A stretch of 64,000 nucleotides of DNA from Candidatus Saccharicenans sp. GTDB lineage: Bacteria > Acidobacteriota > Aminicenantia > Aminicenantales > Saccharicenantaceae. This document shows positions 9,111-16,382 of this stretch, in pieces. A program made the translations under genes and the position numbers. The notes under the pieces were generated by a model. It saw only the letters and a program-made list of their open reading frames with translations, was not told where the DNA came from and did not search any database. The stretch lies in the NCBI GenBank assembly GCA_024653215.1, contig JANLFU010000005.1, positions 124,001 to 188,000 on the forward strand, given 5' to 3'. Position 1 is the first letter of the stretch, and each line of letters begins with the position of its first letter.

Positions 9111-9779
9111 CTACTTCAGGCTTTCCGGGTGGTGACGAACCTGTTCGGCCTTGACCAGGTAAATCACGTACTCGGCGATGTTGGTGGCATGGTCGCAAAT
9201 TCTTTCCAGGTGCCTGGCCACCAGCAACAGGGCCACCGCCCGGGGAGCGGTGCCGGGGTCCTTGCTCATGTAATCGTTGATCAGCTCCGACTGCACCAGG
9301 TTGCGCAGGTTGTCAGCCTCGTTGTCCCTGAGGATAACTGACCTGGCCAGCTCGGTGTCCTTGTTGACGAAAGAATTGATGGCGTCCCGAACCATGCCCT
9401 GGGACAGGGTGGCCAGCTTGGGAATGTCAATCAGTGGTTTCAGCAGGGGCTGGTCGGCTATTTCCAGGACCCTCTGGGCAATGTCCACGGCCAGGTCGGC
9501 GATGCGTTCCAGGTCGGTGGCGATTTTCATCGACATCACGATAAAGCGCAGGTCGGCCGCGGCCGGCTGGTAAAGGGCAATCAGGTTCAGGCACTTTTCC
9601 TCTATGGCCAGGTCCAGGTTGTCGATGCGGTCGTCATCCTTGATAACCGCCTCCGCCTTCTCCCGGCTCAAATCCCTCAGTGCCTTGATGGAATTGCCTA
9701 TGGCCGCTTCGGCCTCGGCACTCATTTCCAGGATTTTCTTGTTAAGTTCCAGCAACTCCTCGTCAAAATATCTGGTCAT
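9111..9779 (-). CDS. phoU: Phosphate uptake regulator PhoU
   Basis: This is a 222-residue PhoU with two three-helix bundles. Each repeat carries the family's acidic metal-cluster motif, here E/DxxxD patterns around DDRIDNLDLAIEEKC (about 47-61) and RDNEADNLRNLV (about 150-161). PhoU links Pst transporter activity to the PhoR/PhoB-type regulators and limits phosphate uptake. It is last in the operon, 36 bases after pstB1. No sensor kinase or response regulator of the PhoRB type is in the window. Confidence 0.95.
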   Translation of the reverse strand: MTRYFDEELLELNKKILEMSAEAEAAIGNSIKALRDLSREKAEAVIKDDDRIDNLDLAIEEKCLNLIALYQPAAADLRFIVMSMKIATDLERIADLAVDIAQRVLEIADQPLLKPLIDIPKLATLSQGMVRDAINSFVNKDTELARSVILRDNEADNLRNLVQSELINDYMSKDPGTAPRAVALLLVARHLERICDHATNIAEYVIYLVKAEQVRHHPESLK

Positions 9780-9815: not shown

Positions 9816-10583
9816 TTAACCAAAACGGCCGGTAATATAATCTTCAGTCCGCTTATCCCGGGGACTGGTAAATATCTGATTGGTCTCGCCGAATTCCACC
9901 AGGTCACCCAGCAGGAAGTAGCCGGTGTAATCGGACACCCGGGCCGCCTGCTGCATGTTATGGGTGACGATGATTATAGTATAGTCTCGCTTGAGTTCGT
10001 ACATCAAATCCTCGATCCGGGCCGTGGCCACCGGGTCCAGGGCCGAGCATGGTTCATCCATCAGCACCACCTCGGGCTCAACCGCCAGCAACCGGGCAAT
10101 GCACAACCGCTGCTGCTGCTCACCGGTCAGCTTCAGGGCATTATCGTGAAGCCGGTCCTTGAGCTCCTCCCAGAGGTTGACCGCCTGCAGGCTGCGGTGG
10201 AGCTTTTCTTCAAGAAAATTGGGTTCGGTCCGACCGTGAACCCTGAGCCCGTAGGTGATGTTGTCGGCAATGCTCAGCGGAAAGGGATTCGGCCTCTGGA
10301 AAACCATTCCCACCTTTCGCCGCAGTTCCAGCAGGTCGGTCCCCGGGTCGAAAATGTTCTTGCCCTCGAACAGGACCTCGCCCTCTGTCCGGCAACCTTC
10401 AATCAGGTCGTTCATCCGGTTGAGGGCTCTCAGGAAGGTTGATTTCCCGCAGCCCGACGGTCCGATCAGGGCGGTGATGCGGTTGGCCTGGATATCAAGA
10501 TTTATATCTCTGAGCGCCTGAAATTTGCCGTAAAAGACGTTTAAGTTCCTGACCTCGATAACATTCTTCCTGGTGGCGCTCAT
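9816..10583 (-). CDS. pstB: Phosphate ABC transporter ATPase PstB1 with degraded signature motif
   Basis: This is the ATPase of the high-affinity phosphate importer, 255 residues. Walker [10 protein letters not shown] is at 41-49, the Q-loop glutamine at Q96 (VFQRPNPFP), Walker B VLMDE at 173-177 and the switch histidine at H208 ([11 protein letters not shown]). The signature motif, normally LSGGQ, is LTGEQ (152-156), so the second glycine is glutamate. This should weaken the composite ATP site formed with the partner's Walker A. It is separated from the second pstB by a 329-base gap but lies directly before phoU. See pstB2 for the complementary defects. Confidence 0.93.
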
Positions 10584-10912
10584 GATGGCTGCTTCCTCAT
10601 CTATTTTCCAGGCCGGCCAACCAGCTGCGGACAGCCGCAGGGAATTTCTGGCCCCGGTTCATTCGCGGAAGTTTCTGCCGGCAATTTAACCGCTCCGGCT
10701 GATTTAAGTTCTCAAGCCAGCCCAATTCCATAGCAGGGGCACAACTCGTTTCCGGCCAGAGCTTAATGACGACTGCCATGATGATTAATCCAATCTCCAG
10801 TCTTTTATTCAATCTCCGTTAATATATGTTAAGCACTCCGTTAAAATTGCATAAAAACGGGATGGACTGAAGTGCCCATCGGTCTTAACAGGTTGCCTGG
10901 AGTCATCATTCC
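10584..10912. other. Intergenic region between the two pstB genes
   Basis: 329 bases on the template of the pst operon. A 71-codon frame with a TTG start exists here but has no usable ribosome binding site and no recognisable sequence, so I do not call it. The upstream end holds the TTAAC direct repeats described separately, so this may be a second promoter region for pstB1-phoU. Confidence 0.45.
10814..10844 (-). promoter_or_regulatory. Possible Pho-type box upstream of pstB1-phoU
   Basis: On the minus strand three TTAAC elements recur with start-to-start spacings of 12 and 10 bases. The outer two are identical nine-base copies (TTAACGGAG; plus-strand 10814-10822 and 10836-10844) exactly 22 bases apart, or two helical turns. 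PhoP of Bacillus binds TT(A/C/T)ACA direct repeats of about 11-base period, so the arrangement fits a phosphate-response operator. A TATATT lies within the array. Confidence 0.4.
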
Positions 10913-11671
10913 TCATCCAAACTTTCCTTCCAGGTAGGCCTCGGTCCGCTTGTCCGAAGGTCTGGTAAAGACCACTCGTGTTTCGTCTATCTCCACCAGC
11001 TCTCCCATCAGGAAAAAGGCTGTCCGGTCGGCCACCCTGGCCGCCTGCTTGGTATTGTTGGTTACCAGGATTATGGTGTAATCCTTCTTAAGGGTCCGCA
11101 GCGAGTCTTCGATTTTCATGGTGGAAATGGGATCCAGGCCGGAGGTCGGCTCATCCAGCATTATGTACTGCGGCTTCAGGGCCAGCACCCGGGCAATGCA
11201 CAACCGCTGCTGCTGACCACCAGACAACTTAAGGGCACTGGTGTGAAGCCTGTCCTTGACCTCCGCCCAGAGCCCGGCCTTTTCCAGCGAATCCTCCACA
11301 ATCCGGTCCAGCTCCCCGCGGTCATTGTTTCCCAGCAGGCGGACCCCGAAGACTATGTTCTCGTAGATGGTCAGGGGCAGCGGCACCGGGGTGGCAAAGA
11401 CCATGCCCAGCTTCCTTCTCAGGGCCACCACGTCCACTTCCGGCCCGTAGATGTCCTGGTCATCAACCAGGATTTTCCCTTCCACCCGAGAGCCGGGTAT
11501 CAGGTCGTTCAGGCGGTTGAGACAGGCCAGGAAGGTCGATTTACCGCTCCTGGCCGGCCCGATGATGCCCAGGATCTCATTGCGATAGACATCCAGGTTG
11601 ATGTTGTTCAGGCTGCGGTTCTCCCCGTAATAATGGCTGAAATCCCGGACCAGTATGCCTCTCTGTTTCAT
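10913..11671 (-). CDS. Second PstB-like ATPase lacking Q-loop Gln and switch His (PstB2)
   Basis: This PstB paralogue of 252 residues sits directly after pstA (3-base gap). Walker A is GPARSGKST (38-46), the signature LSGGQ (149-153) is perfect, and the Walker B glutamate E174 is present. The Q-loop glutamine is replaced by A93 (VFATP) and the switch histidine by N205 (VTNNTKQAARV). I read both changes in the DNA at about 11400 and 11055. These losses normally cripple hydrolysis at the site containing this Walker A. Its intact signature could complete the canonical Walker A/Q/H site of PstB1. A homodimer of this protein would probably be inactive. Confidence 0.9.
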   Translation of the reverse strand: MKQRGILVRDFSHYYGENRSLNNINLDVYRNEILGIIGPARSGKSTFLACLNRLNDLIPGSRVEGKILVDDQDIYGPEVDVVALRRKLGMVFATPVPLPLTIYENIVFGVRLLGNNDRGELDRIVEDSLEKAGLWAEVKDRLHTSALKLSGGQQQRLCIARVLALKPQYIMLDEPTSGLDPISTMKIEDSLRTLKKDYTIILVTNNTKQAARVADRTAFFLMGELVEIDETRVVFTRPSDKRTEAYLEGKFG

Positions 11672-11674
11672 TGT

Positions 11675-12532
11675 TTACGATTTCCGCTTTATGTACTTTT
11701 CCATCAAGTAATAGGTAACGATGTTGATGACCAGGATGGATATGACCAGCACCGCGGCCGTACCGTAGGCCTTGGGCATGGACACTCCCTCCTTGGCCAG
11801 GATGTAAAAATGGACCGACATGGTCCGCGAGGAAGAAAAGAGCGAGGTGGGCATTCTCAGGGCCGAACCGGCGGTAAAGATGACGGCCGCGGTTTCCCCG
11901 ATGCTCCGCCCGATGCTCAGGATGACCCCGGTCACGATTCCAGGGATGGCCGAGGGCAGGACCACCCGGGTAACCGTCTGCCAGCGGGTGCTGCCCAGAG
12001 AAAAGCTGACCAGGCGGTAAGCCGGCGGCACGGCCTTGATGGCCTCCTCGCTGGTCCTGATTATGGTCGGCAGGACCATGAAGGCCAGGGTCAAACCGCC
12101 GCTCAGGATTGACCAGCCAAACTTCAATTTATTGACAAAAAGGATAAAGCCAAACAGGCCAAAGATGATGGAAGGAATCCCGGCCAGGCACTCGGCTCCA
12201 AAGCGGATGATCCTGGTAATCCGGCTCTCCACGGTATATTCGGTAAGGTAAATGGCCGTGCCCACGCCCAGGGGGGTGGCTACCAGCAGGGCGATAAAGG
12301 TCAGAAAGATGGTGGCCACGATGGTGGACAGGATCCCGCCTTCCCGGCCCATGTCAGCGGGATTTTTTGTGAGAAATTCCAGGTTGAGCTGGGGCAGGCC
12401 GTTTTTCAATATGACCACCAGGATAAAGACCAGCACCAGGACAGCTATAGAGGTCATCAGATACATGAAGACCTGGATGACCTTCTGTTCCGTTCTCGGC
12501 TGCAATTTTAACTGCCCGCCCATCAGACTCAC
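11675..12532 (-). CDS. pstA: Phosphate ABC transporter permease PstA
   Basis: This inner-membrane permease of 285 residues has about six transmembrane segments and the EAA-type loop of binding-protein-dependent transporters (EAIKAVPPAYRLVSFSLG region, about 163-180), which contacts the ATPase. It pairs with PstC to form the phosphate channel. It lies one base from pstC and three from pstB2, so it is in the same transcript. Having a PstC/PstA heterodimer as the membrane part makes a matching heterodimer of ATPases structurally possible. Confidence 0.95.
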   Translation of the reverse strand: MSLMGGQLKLQPRTEQKVIQVFMYLMTSIAVLVLVFILVVILKNGLPQLNLEFLTKNPADMGREGGILSTIVATIFLTFIALLVATPLGVGTAIYLTEYTVESRITRIIRFGAECLAGIPSIIFGLFGFILFVNKLKFGWSILSGGLTLAFMVLPTIIRTSEEAIKAVPPAYRLVSFSLGSTRWQTVTRVVLPSAIPGIVTGVILSIGRSIGETAAVIFTAGSALRMPTSLFSSSRTMSVHFYILAKEGVSMPKAYGTAAVLVISILVINIVTYYLMEKYIKRKS

Positions 12533-12533
12533 C

Positions 12534-13394
12534 TTACTTTTTCCTCTGCCTGGTAGAAGTCACGTTGGCAATGGTATTAAGGATCATGATGATGATAAAC
12601 AGTATTACCCCGGTGGCAAACAGGGCCTCCCGATGTTCCTCGCTGGCGTAGGCCATTTCCAGGGCGATGTTGGAGGTCAGGGTCCGGACCGGGGCCAGAA
12701 TTGAACCGGGAATGTCAGCGGCATTTCCGGCCACCATGATGACGGCCATGGTTTCTCCTATGGCCCGGCCCATGCCCAGGATGATGCCGGCAATTATCCC
12801 GGAGCGGGCCGCCGGCAGGACCACCATTCTGACCGTCTGCCACCTGGTGGCACCCAGGGCAATAGAACCTTCACGGTAAGAATCGGGAACCGCCCTGATG
12901 GAGTCGATGGCAATGCTGATAACCGTCGGCAGGATCATTATCCCCAGGATCAGCGAGGCGGCCAGCACCGATAATCCGGGCCCGCCGAAGTTATCCCTGA
13001 TAAACGGCACCAGGAACATCAGCCCGATAAAACCATAGACAACCGAAGGAATGCCGGCCAGGAGCTCAATGACCGGCTTGAGAATGCGGGTCAACCGCCG
13101 GTGCGAGAATTCGGTCAGGAAGATGGCACTGGCCAGGCCCAGGGGAACACCTATAATCAACGCCCCGAAGGTCACCATCAGAGAGCCGACAATCATCGGC
13201 AGCAGGCCGAAACTCTTTTCCGACGGGTACCAGTCCTGTCCGAGCAGGAAGCTCTTGAACCCGTACCTGAACATGATGGGGGTTCCCTGCTCGAAGATAA
13301 ACAGGGTGATGATGGCCAGGACAGAAATGGCCGAGAGGGCAATCATCAACAGGCCCAGCCTGACCAGCCGGTCGTTTTTCTCAAGCCTGGTCAT
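12534..13394 (-). CDS. pstC: Phosphate ABC transporter permease PstC
   Basis: This 286-residue permease has an N-terminal segment (LVRLGLLMIALSAISVLAII) followed by about five further membrane helices. An EAA loop (DSIRAVPDSYREGSIALGAT region) touches the ATPase. The start overlaps the pstS stop by four bases (ATGA-type coupling), and pstA follows after one base. It works with PstA, PstS and the PstB ATPases to import inorganic phosphate. Confidence 0.95.
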   Translation of the reverse strand: MTRLEKNDRLVRLGLLMIALSAISVLAIITLFIFEQGTPIMFRYGFKSFLLGQDWYPSEKSFGLLPMIVGSLMVTFGALIIGVPLGLASAIFLTEFSHRRLTRILKPVIELLAGIPSVVYGFIGLMFLVPFIRDNFGGPGLSVLAASLILGIMILPTVISIAIDSIRAVPDSYREGSIALGATRWQTVRMVVLPAARSGIIAGIILGMGRAIGETMAVIMVAGNAADIPGSILAPVRTLTSNIALEMAYASEEHREALFATGVILFIIIMILNTIANVTSTRQRKK

Positions 13395-14290
13395 CGGCTG
13401 CCCTCCGGCCGGGAACCCCGTCTTACGGGGATTAAACCCTCTTTATGAACCAGCTCCTGGATTTCATCGGACAGGACAAAATCTATGAATTCCTTGGCCA
13501 GCCCGGACGGCGTTTCCCGCGTCAGAAACAGGAATGGCCGGACCAGCTTGTATTCCCTCTTGAGAATGGCTTCTTCTGTTGGTTTTACCCCGTTGAGAGC
13601 CAGGGCCTTGACCGAGTCATTGACCAGGCCCAGCGAGATAAACCCTATGGCGTTGGGGTCGCGGCTGACGATTTCCCTGACCGTGCCGTTGGAATCCTGG
13701 ACTATGGCCTTCTTGGTAATCCGTGATTTTCCCATGACCAGTTCCTGGAAGGCACCCCGGGTACCAGAGCCCTCTTCCCTGACCACCACGGTTATGGCCT
13801 TTTTCTGGCCGTTGAGGGTTTCCCAGGTGGTAATCTCGCCCAGGAAAATGCTCTTGACCTGTTCGATGGTGATATTTTCAAGCGGATTGCTGGGATGGAC
13901 GATGATGGCCAGCCCGTCGTGGGCCACTTCTATCTGGTATAGCTCTTTTTCGTCGCCTTTGAGTTCCCTGGAAGACATCCCGATGTGAGCCGCACCGGTC
14001 AGGACGGCCTGGATGCCGGCACTCGAACCCCCACCCTGGACATCAACGATTTCACCGGGCCTTTTCTCCATAAAAACTTCTGCCCACTTATCGGCAAAGG
14101 GCTGGATGCTGGTTGAGCCGGCCACCACCAGGCTGTGGCCACTGCGACCCGAGCGACAGGAAGGGAAAAGAGCCATAAGAACCAGGATCATGATGACCAG
14201 AAAGCGAGAATAATGGAAAAAGGAAGAGCTATTTTCCTGGCCAGCGGAAGGGGCCCCTACACGGCCTGGCTTGAATTCCTCGGTCTCCAT
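13391..14290 (-). CDS. pstS: Phosphate-binding protein PstS (probable lipoprotein)
   Basis: This is the periplasmic phosphate receptor. The mature part begins with VVAGSTSIQPFADKW and contains the conserved GGGSSAGI and EGSGTRGAF phosphate loops. A hydrophobic N-terminus ending in LFPSC suggests a lipoprotein. The longest frame runs to 14365, but I prefer the ATG at 14290 because AGAGG lies nine bases upstream and the extra 25 residues are hydrophilic. That gives 300 residues with a long cytoplasmic N-region before the signal, which is unusual. It is the first gene of the pst operon. Confidence 0.92.
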   Translation of the reverse strand: METEEFKPGRVGAPSAGQENSSSFFHYSRFLVIMILVLMALFPSCRSGRSGHSLVVAGSTSIQPFADKWAEVFMEKRPGEIVDVQGGGSSAGIQAVLTGAAHIGMSSRELKGDEKELYQIEVAHDGLAIIVHPSNPLENITIEQVKSIFLGEITTWETLNGQKKAITVVVREEGSGTRGAFQELVMGKSRITKKAIVQDSNGTVREIVSRDPNAIGFISLGLVNDSVKALALNGVKPTEEAILKREYKLVRPFLFLTRETPSGLAKEFIDFVLSDEIQELVHKEGLIPVRRGSRPEGSR

Positions 14291-14386
14291 GCTCAACAGC
14301 CTCTTTTCGCCTTTTTTCTCGCTCCCGGAACAGGCATAGTCCCGCACCTGTTTCTGACAGCTCACGGGAATCCTTACAGGTTTTTA

Positions 14387-14392
14387 ATTATA
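14387..14392 (-). promoter_or_regulatory. Possible -10 for the pst operon
   Basis: A perfect minus-strand TATAAT lies about 97 bases before pstS, in the gap after the ABC-F gene. It is flanked by TTAAGT and TTAAAA ten bases apart, a faint echo of the TTAAC repeats before pstB1. No clear -35 is present, which fits an activator-dependent promoter. Confidence 0.35.
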
Positions 14393-14435
14393 CTTAACTT
14401 TGAGAAAAAGAAAAGTTGCCACCCGGAACTATTAC

Positions 14436-16382
14436 TCAGGAAGACAACTTGTCAATTTCCTGGAGGCGCCGTTCAAAACTCTGGCTTTTTTCCTCGTAAT
14501 CCTGGTAGACCTGGGTGTATTCTTCGTAGAGAGAGTCCAGGTTCTTCCGGCTGGCATCAAGTTCTCGAGAGAGGCGAACCACCTCCTGGCCCCGGCCATC
14601 AACCGAGGCGGCTATTATCTCCTGGGTCAGCTGGTTGACCCTTTGCTCAATCTCTTCAATCTGGCTTTCCAGCCTGAGGACTCTATCTTCCAGGGGTTTA
14701 AGGACCCTGGATTTCTCTATTACGATTTCCGACCTGAGCTTGCGCAGCTCTCGCGGTGAGAGCTTGAACTTGAATGATTCGTCGGGAGAAGACGGGACGG
14801 TTCCGTTCTTGTTCCTGCTTGCTTTTTCTGGTGGCCTGGCTAACGTTTCTGCCGGCTCGCAGGTTCCGCCTGTGTTCTTTTCTGAGACCTCAGACTTCTC
14901 TTCATTCCAGCCAACCTTTTTCAAAAAGCTTTCGTAATCTCCCTCAAAAACGGTGATCCGGTCATCCTGGAACACTATCAGGCGCTCGGCCAGGGCCTTC
15001 AAGAACAGCTCGTTGTGGGTAACCATGACCACCGCCCCGTCAAAGTTATCGAGGGCGGCCAGCAGGGCATCGCAGGATTCCAGGTCCAGATGGTTGGTCG
15101 GCTCGTCCAGGAGAAGGAGGTTGACCGGGGTGGCCAGGATCTTGCCCAGGAGAACGCGGCTCTTTTCACCACCGGACAGGACCCGGATGGGCTTGAGGGC
15201 TTCGTCTCCTTCAAACAGCAGGGTGCCGGCTATGTGGCGTACCCTGGCCGGTTCCAGCTGGGGGTTGGCCGAACCTATTTCCTCAAGCACGGTGTTGACG
15301 CTGTTCATGTCCTCGGCAAAGCTCTGCTCGTAGTAACCGGCCGAAACCGATTTGGGAAAAGTTATCTCTCCCGACTGCGGCCGGAGCAAGTCCGCCATCA
15401 GCTTTAGCAGGGTGGTTTTACCGCGGCCGTTGGGTCCAATGACCATCACCCGGTCCCGGGCCCCGATATGGATGCTGAAATCTCTGATAAGTGGCTTATC
15501 CGGAGTATAGGCAAAGCTGACATTTTCCAGGCTCAGGGCATACTTGTGGTGAAACCTTTTCTCCAGAAAGGAAAATTCCATGTTCTTGATTTTTTCCAGC
15601 TTTTCCCGCTTTTCCATTTTTTCGATGTACTTCAGGCGGGATTGCACAAGGCCGGCCAGCCGGGCCTTGGCCCGGAAGCGGTTGATGAAGACCTCCAATT
15701 CCTTGCGTTTTCTCTCGTCGTTGATGCGGGTCTTCTCGTAGACTTCTTCTTCCAGGGCCAGCTGGTTGTAGTATTTTTCGGTGTTGCCTTCAATTTTGCG
15801 AATCTTGCGGCGGTGCAACCCCAAAATATGGGTGGCCACCCGGTCCATGAAGCTGCGGTCGTGAGTGATAAACATCAGCTCTCCCCGCCAGGATAGCAAG
15901 AATTTTTCCAGCCAGCGGATGGAGGTGATGTCCAGGTAGTTATTGGGCTCATCCAGAAGCAGTAGGTCATAATCAGACAGAAGCAGCCGGGCCAGGTTCA
16001 AACGGACCTGAAAGCCGCCCGACAGCTGTCGTGGATTCTTCTCGAAATCTTCTGGCGAAAAGCCCAGGCCGGCCAGGACTTTTTCCACCCGCCACAGCTG
16101 GTCAGAATCGCAGGCCGGAAGACCCGAGCCGGCTTCTTCCAGGACCGTGGATTTCCGGAAACTGGGCTCCTGTTCCAGATAACCAATGCGGTAGTTCCTG
16201 GGAATGACCACCCGTCCCTCGTCCGGCTCCTCCAGGCCGGCAATGATGCGGAACAGGGTTGACTTGCCGTGGCCGTTCTTGCCCACCAGGCCGACCCGTT
16301 CGCCCGGGTTAATCTTGAAGCTGATTTTTTCAAACAGGACCTGCCGGGCAAAGCTCTTCGATAATTCTTCAACCGCTATCAT
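14436..16382 (-). CDS. ABC-F family ATPase
   Basis: This soluble 648-residue protein has two fused ABC ATPase domains and no membrane segments. NBD1 has Walker A GKNGHGKST (about 34-42), LSGGFQV and Walker B LLLDEPNNYLD. A basic linker (about 225-290, rich in K/R) follows, then NBD2 with GPNGRGKTT, LSGGEKSR and LLLDEPTNHLD. The C-terminal tail (about 560-640) is a coiled coil like that of Uup/YfmR proteins. ABC-F proteins act on ribosomes (translation rescue or antibiotic protection). The domain order and coiled coil favour a housekeeping Uup/YdiF-like role. Confidence 0.9.
   Translation of the reverse strand: MIAVEELSKSFARQVLFEKISFKINPGERVGLVGKNGHGKSTLFRIIAGLEEPDEGRVVIPRNYRIGYLEQEPSFRKSTVLEEAGSGLPACDSDQLWRVEKVLAGLGFSPEDFEKNPRQLSGGFQVRLNLARLLLSDYDLLLLDEPNNYLDITSIRWLEKFLLSWRGELMFITHDRSFMDRVATHILGLHRRKIRKIEGNTEKYYNQLALEEEVYEKTRINDERKRKELEVFINRFRAKARLAGLVQSRLKYIEKMEKREKLEKIKNMEFSFLEKRFHHKYALSLENVSFAYTPDKPLIRDFSIHIGARDRVMVIGPNGRGKTTLLKLMADLLRPQSGEITFPKSVSAGYYEQSFAEDMNSVNTVLEEIGSANPQLEPARVRHIAGTLLFEGDEALKPIRVLSGGEKSRVLLGKILATPVNLLLLDEPTNHLDLESCDALLAALDNFDGAVVMVTHNELFLKALAERLIVFQDDRITVFEGDYESFLKKVGWNEEKSEVSEKNTGGTCEPAETLARPPEKASRNKNGTVPSSPDESFKFKLSPRELRKLRSEIVIEKSRVLKPLEDRVLRLESQIEEIEQRVNQLTQEIIAASVDGRGQEVVRLSRELDASRKNLDSLYEEYTQVYQDYEEKSQSFERRLQEIDKLSS

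Follow-up and report, generated by a model that had tools for sequence, protein, structure and literature searches.

In Escherichia coli phoU lies within the pst operon, and the primary promoter is located before pstS. Alternative internal promoters have also been reported for this operon (cited in PMC12096839). The pho box bound by E. coli PhoB consists of 11-nt direct repeats (PMC4415409, PMC1906773) held at a strict spacing to the core promoter elements (PMC10294691). In Synechocystis, the Pho boxes of SphR are tandem CTTAACCT 8-mers with 3-bp linkers, located upstream of pst operons (PMC1906773). PhoU is a negative regulator of phosphate signalling, and Enterococcus faecalis carries tandem pstB1/pstB2 genes with unequal roles (PMC12096839). 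In a model of the Bacillus subtilis Pst importer, PstBA and PstBB are its two distinct ATPase subunits (PMC11466899). Comparisons made below with these systems refer to the cited passages of the papers. No paper was found on Saccharicenans in connection with phosphate or on an acidobacterial Pho box with PhoB, and none of the matches listed for Aminicenantes, 10 of 339, bears that name. The present analysis offers a first sketch of a Pho regulon, with a computed Pho box, for Saccharicenans.

The window (the whole stretch of 64,000 nt of Candidatus Saccharicenans sp. that was analysed) carries on its minus strand, in this order, pstS, pstC, pstA, pstB2, a 329-base gap, pstB1 and phoU (Table 1). 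The preliminary description had reported a triple of TTAAC elements in this gap at spacings of 12 and 10 bases, and all of its elements are present on the minus strand where it had placed them; the outer two share the nine-mer TTAACGGAG and lie 22 bases from each other. Its register was revised by comparison with relatives, which gives four 11-bp units. The middle TTAAC is shifted by one base from the 11-bp register in this genome, hence the spacings of 12 and 10. The −10 element that follows is weak in this genome.

Table 1. Coordinates of the pst cluster, its predicted regulatory elements and candidate Pho box sites elsewhere in the genus
Feature	Coordinates	Strand	Remarks
phoU	9111..9779	-	TIGR02135 above cut-off
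pstB1	9816..10583	-	TIGR00972 397.6 bits, above cut-off
pstB2-pstB1 gap	10584-10912		329 bases
Possible leader ORF	10597..10779	-	60 codons; ends 13 nt before pstB1; unproven
−10 element TAAAAG	10802..10807	-	First base 15 nt after first base of last unit
Pho box (predicted), four 11-bp units	10812..10855	-	TTTATGCAATT, TTAACGGAGTG, CTTAACATATA, TTAACGGAGAT; from blind motif finding and cross-trained model
TTAAC elements, three	10844-10840, 10832-10828, 10822-10818 (within 10814..10844)	-	Spacings 12 and 10
Terminator-like hairpin with T-run	10861..10880	-	Between pstB2 and box
pstB2	10913..11671	-	TIGR00972 340.4 bits, just below 343.2 cut-off
pstA-type permease	11675..12532	-	Named from gene order and sequence
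pstC-type permease	12534..13394	-	Named from gene order and sequence
pstS-type phosphate-binding protein	13391..14365	-	PBP_like_2; start codon uncertain
−10 (TATAAT) of conserved pstS promoter	14387..14392	-
GT21 glycosyltransferase operon preceded by candidate Pho box	L180:1501-2756, L219:52-2642
Box before PHP-domain gene	L181, site at 1501-1547

Judged by its architecture, the element is a putative PHO box, closest to the cyanobacterial SphR box. With the SphR boxes it shares tandem direct repeats of 11-bp period upstream of pst genes; it differs from them in its four units, its fixed distance to a −10 and its additional location inside the pst cluster, before pstB1-phoU. With the E. coli PhoB box it shares direct repeats of 11 nt and their constant spacing to a sigma-70 −10, whereas its core is TTNAC and that of E. 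coli is CTGTCAT. The original reading is supported, with the refinement that the sequence is nearer to the SphR box than to the Bacillus PhoP box that had been quoted. Initiation inside the pst operon, predicted here, also has a parallel in the internal promoters of E. coli; unlike the latter, the Saccharicenans internal promoter bears a conserved Pho box, and the pstS promoter of this genome has no clear one. The best explanation of the gap, in which we place high confidence, is that the pstB1-phoU promoter contains a Pho box of the PhoB type, and these two genes are very probably under a predicted PhoB-dependent promoter.

The same gap was sought across the genus in 19 genomes including this one, and was read in 18 of the 19 (all except G023). 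Gap lengths range from 99 to 338 bases, and the flanks of the box are widely different and largely unalignable. A blind EM motif search in 15 of the 18 gaps, the near-duplicates L053, G019 and L059 being excluded, returned the same box in 14; once the three near-duplicates were added by alignment the Pho box was present in 17 of 18 gaps, which settles in favour of conservation the comparison with relatives that had been proposed as a check. Relatives share ancestry, so that these counts of genomes are not counts of independent events. The one gap with no recognisable box, either by EM or by the cross-trained model described below, is that of L061, and the box of L055 is weak. At width 28 the EM log-likelihood was 153.8 for the real gaps versus 79.7 ± 1.3 for shuffled ones, and at width 40 it was 247.8 versus 109.0 ± 6.3 (40 starts each; 12 shuffles). 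Another run with unequal starts (80 real, 20 shuffled) gave the same picture; L055, L064 and L065 were out of register in it at width 28 and in register with equal starts. EM on the sequence 3′ of the box in 12 gaps reached only 87.6 versus 73.9 ± 3.0 (60 starts versus 15).

In the gaps the first unit is T-rich, the second is TTAAY, the third is degenerate in several relatives and the fourth is mostly TTAAC. The box therefore contains at least two direct 11-nt repeat units, as a PHO box does. The −10, often TATAAA-like, begins 15 nt downstream of the base at which the last unit starts, and TA stands there in 15 of the 17 aligned boxes. This fixed distance points to a promoter for pstB1-phoU. 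A separate, phosphate-responsive promoter for these genes had been suggested from the repeat alone; the conserved box with its −10 at fixed distance supports the promoter, and we infer the phosphate response.

A scan of the genome for the repeat at other phosphate genes, also suggested at the outset, led to a second operon. On contig C30 of the same genome a porin-like gene, pstS, pstC, pstA, pstB, phoU and a gene for a PhoB-like regulator follow in a row (all except phoU and phoB named from sequence and order; the porin-like protein had no Pfam or NCBIfam match), and the box recurs upstream of this operon. The upstream region was read at 12 of 15 loci (this genome and 14 fetched); of the others, L134 starts inside the porin gene, L138 has no porin or pstS match and L140 has a distant pstS. 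Four 11-bp units, in a common architecture, are found in all 12 regions read: TTAAC followed by TTAAC in 12 of 12, TTCRC in 11 and TTYAY in 12. All 12 also have TAT at +15, and the spacing to the −10 is thus fixed in both sets of promoters, as it is in a PHO box. The box is likewise common to other phosphate genes of the genome, namely the porin-pstSCAB-phoU-phoB operon, with the limit that profiles of full length do not detect each other's class.

Units and −10 learnt from nine porin promoters only (L142, L141 and L145 excluded) chose the pre-set position in 16 of 18 gaps, and the units alone, without the −10, agreed in 14 of 18. Thirteen of the reference positions were taken from EM, and those of L053, G019, L059 and L055 were hand-set; for L055 the choice lies one base from the hand-set position and equals the EM position, and L061 was negative. 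Against dinucleotide shuffles the porin-trained scan gave p of 0.04 or less in 17 of 18 gaps. With full profiles, neither promoter class detected the other. Profile R1, made from 16 of the 18 gap boxes (L055 and L061 excluded), recovered nothing but itself at a meaningful E-value among the 150 candidates scored, the next having E 3.6; the pstB1 site was absent from the matches of profile R2, made from 11 of the 12 porin promoters (L145 is identical to L144 over the segment), among the 150 candidates scored. The two promoter classes therefore share architecture and not full sequence.

Of the 19 genus genomes, 17 encode a PhoB ortholog, either full or split, and the two without are 79–80 % complete. 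This genome yielded just two OmpR-type DNA-binding domains. One belongs to the PhoB-like protein encoded at C30:61541-62251, whose best NCBIfam match is TIGR02154 at 246.1 bits, below the PhoB equivalog cut-off of 296.2; the other is encoded on contig C11, where its gene directly follows one that matches a histidine kinase. No PhoR scored above its cut-off in this genome, the best match (279.9 bits versus 334.2) being on another contig. The likely regulator of the box is the PhoB-like protein encoded in the second pst operon. A different OmpR-family regulator, such as that of C11, could instead bind the conserved promoter, which would then not answer to the phosphate regulator. The existence of the C11 gene beside a kinase match and the sub-threshold score of the C30 protein are compatible with this, yet the same architecture stands before the C30 operon, whose products include the PhoB-like regulator, PhoU and a complete Pst importer, and the gap box is located by units learnt there; binding by another regulator is for these reasons improbable.

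An ordinary constitutive internal promoter, in which the TTAAC repeats would be AT-rich promoter DNA serving no activator, would account for AT-rich, promoter-like DNA with a −10. It would also account for the two-element core, which taken alone is at background level genome-wide: TTAACN5-7TTAAC has 13 matches versus 11 for the reversed control pattern, and four of the 13 are the window triple (two), the porin promoter and a PHP gene. The evidence beyond chance thus lies in the triple, its conservation, the spacing to the −10 and the recurrence at another phosphate operon. Since the 11-bp phasing and the unit sequence are conserved amid largely unalignable flanks, and both match the porin operon promoter, a constitutive promoter is very unlikely. 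A chance repeat with no function, to which the near-background count of the core pair would be congenial, is ruled out by conservation in 17 of 18 gaps and by shuffling of the gap, in which a TTAAC triple at 10–12 spacing on either strand appeared in 0 of 20,000 dinucleotide shuffles and a triple of any 5-mer in 6 of 3,000.

The promoter of pstS shares the sequence CTTTTCTTTTTCTCAAAGTTAAGTATAAT in this genome, L053, L054 and L059, and TTNAC repeats in register were not seen there by eye. The porin-trained scan gave p of 0.075 (mononucleotide shuffles) and 0.15 (dinucleotide shuffles) for it in this genome. Upstream of pstS across the genus, p was below 0.05 in 4 of 15 regions with mononucleotide shuffles and in 4 of 16 with dinucleotide shuffles (L058, L059, L062 and L065). 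The former scan covered 15 of 18 genomes (without L057, L061 and G019), with L062, L064 and L068 cut to the first 260 bases, which in L068 leaves the region next to pstS outside the bases read; the latter covered the 230 bases directly before the gene in 16 of 18 (without L057 and G019). A degenerate Pho box at pstS is thus possible in some relatives, and that the pstS promoter of the cluster is without a clear Pho box in this genome is less firmly established than the box in the gap. The pstS promoter region (14280-14438) is strongly conserved in close relatives, and a different regulator may act there.

A terminator-like hairpin with a T-run lies between pstB2 and the box, and the 41-nt fold around it has a z of −3.4. 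It is clear in this genome, L053 and G019, weaker in L068 and weak or missing in L054 and L056; the hairpin of L057 is stable but its T-run is poor. A genus-wide terminator before the box was considered and set aside, as the hairpin is confined to this genome and close relatives.

Different control seems to act on pstSCAB2 and pstB1-phoU in this genome. The proposal that the ratio of PstB1 to PstB2 is set separately is plausible in so far as no clear box is present at pstS in this genome. In the mechanism favoured here, that of a PhoB-type box, the PhoB-like protein, whose gene closes the other pst operon, would in its phosphorylated form bind the tandem 11-bp half-sites head to tail and recruit sigma-70 RNA polymerase to the −10, which begins 15 nt downstream of the last half-site's first base. 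pstSCAB2 would be transcribed from its own promoter, which has no clear Pho box, and in this genome and close relatives the hairpin would separate pstB2 from the box. Phosphate shortage would then raise PstB1 and PhoU, not PstSCAB2, and a phosphate promoter would separate one ATPase subunit and PhoU from the remaining Pst importer. The arrangement would hold PhoU in PhoB feedback even if pstS is outside it. In G017, G027 and G031 (90–92 % complete) the other operon lacks a phoU, phoB following pstB directly, and no PhoU was detected apart from the one behind the gap box. The purpose is probably that PhoU, a negative regulator, is kept in PhoB feedback and that the limiting half of a PstB1–PstB2 pair is supplied.

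The two ATPases of the window are altered in complementary motifs. PstB1 has intact Walker A, Q-loop, Walker B and H-loop motifs and the signature LTGEQ; PstB2 has an intact LSGGQ, with Ala in place of the Q-loop Gln, Asn in place of the H-loop His and Arg in place of one Walker A Gly. An altered PstB1 signature together with altered Q- and H-loops of PstB2 is found in 39 of 39 aligned pairs from two phyla, 17 of them from Saccharicenans and 22 from Omnitrophota, where loci were picked for having a PstB2-like neighbour (the PstB2 of L058 contains unknown bases). Across the pairs the PstB1 signature is LTGEQ, or LSLEQ/LTLEQ, and the other motifs are intact save one variant residue beside the H-loop His; PstB2 keeps LSGGQ and has Gln to Ala in the Q-loop, His to Asn in the H-loop and one Walker A Gly changed. 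Each subunit thus lacks catalytic motifs that the other keeps, as in a heterodimeric ABC ATPase of which one ATP site is canonical and the other degenerate. This suggests that PstB1 and PstB2 form a heterodimer, with the promoter lying between their genes. If so, the subunit ratio of a Pst ATPase pair occurring in two phyla becomes a testable control point.

Adjacent pstB paralogues are shared with E. faecalis, whose copies keep the four ATPase motifs compared (PMC12096839), whereas the Saccharicenans copies are degenerate in complementary ones. B. subtilis resembles the present reading in having a Pst importer modelled with two different ATPase subunits; in the passages of that paper cited here, the discussion of degenerate ATP sites concerns the fused RbsA and NupO and does not extend to PstBA/PstBB (PMC11466899). 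No description of complementary degenerate PstB motifs was found among the matches listed for PstB1/PstB2 heterodimers and for PstB with degenerate sites. The altered H-loop pattern of the PstB2 type occurs in 27 of 297 sampled Acidobacteriota genomes, with 0 for the reversed control. At six such loci from sister genera or families the PstB1 partner could be read in three, within 7 bases of PstB2 or overlapping it, and in Omnitrophota the matches are under 30 bases apart in 19 of 22 pairs and 55–82 apart in three. The PstB genes being so close together elsewhere, the promoter-bearing gap appears particular to Saccharicenans among the loci seen, and what sets the box apart is its position, separating the two genes of a probable ATPase pair. 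A further-reaching model, to which we give somewhat less than even weight, is that the PstB1–PstB2 heterodimer is obligate and has just one canonical ATPase site, that in Saccharicenans a Pho box promoter now lies between both genes, and that starvation would set the number of complete pairs, and PhoU, via one subunit, the remaining transporter being made independently.

A wider candidate Pho regulon was outlined with profile R2, which matches the porin promoter at E of 1e-6 or below in 18 of 19 genus genomes. These 18 comprise 11 training genomes, one identical to a training row and six others, and in all six of the latter the match is just 5′ of the porin gene. A match on G032:C10 inside a coding sequence was set aside as chance. 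The next-best sites, five in four genomes with E from 1e-4 to 7e-4, all precede one orthologous glycosyltransferase operon. Its first gene is of the GT21 family and HpnI-like, below cut-off, and its second gene weakly resembles diglucosyl diacylglycerol synthase, again below cut-off. Caulobacter makes a glycosphingolipid by means of two sequential glycosyltransferases (PMC6445935), and by analogy the operon could serve lipid remodelling under phosphate shortage. In this genome the second gene of the operon is apparently split into fragments. A PHP-domain gene, its PHP match just under cut-off, carries a box in two genomes at E of about 0.02. On reading, TA is present at +15 in all seven glycosyltransferase and PHP sites. 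The supposed −10 of the glycosyltransferase promoters ends a few bases before the ATG and leaves hardly any leader, so that their mRNAs would be leaderless or start elsewhere.

The leader ORF before pstB1 is a possible coding sequence, and it has no Pfam match. Leader ORFs of 56–71 codons are found in 9 of 18 gaps, with the stop 10–16 nt before pstB1 in eight and an overlap with pstB1 in one. Their dN/dS is 0.4–1.1 over seven pairs, and each has a 1.6–36 % chance of staying open. In the nine genomes the leader ORF is fast-evolving.

The PhoU of the window has 61–67 % identity to PhoU of mostly Omnitrophota records versus 48–55 % to most sister-genus PhoU. This pattern of identity may reflect horizontal transfer of the cluster.
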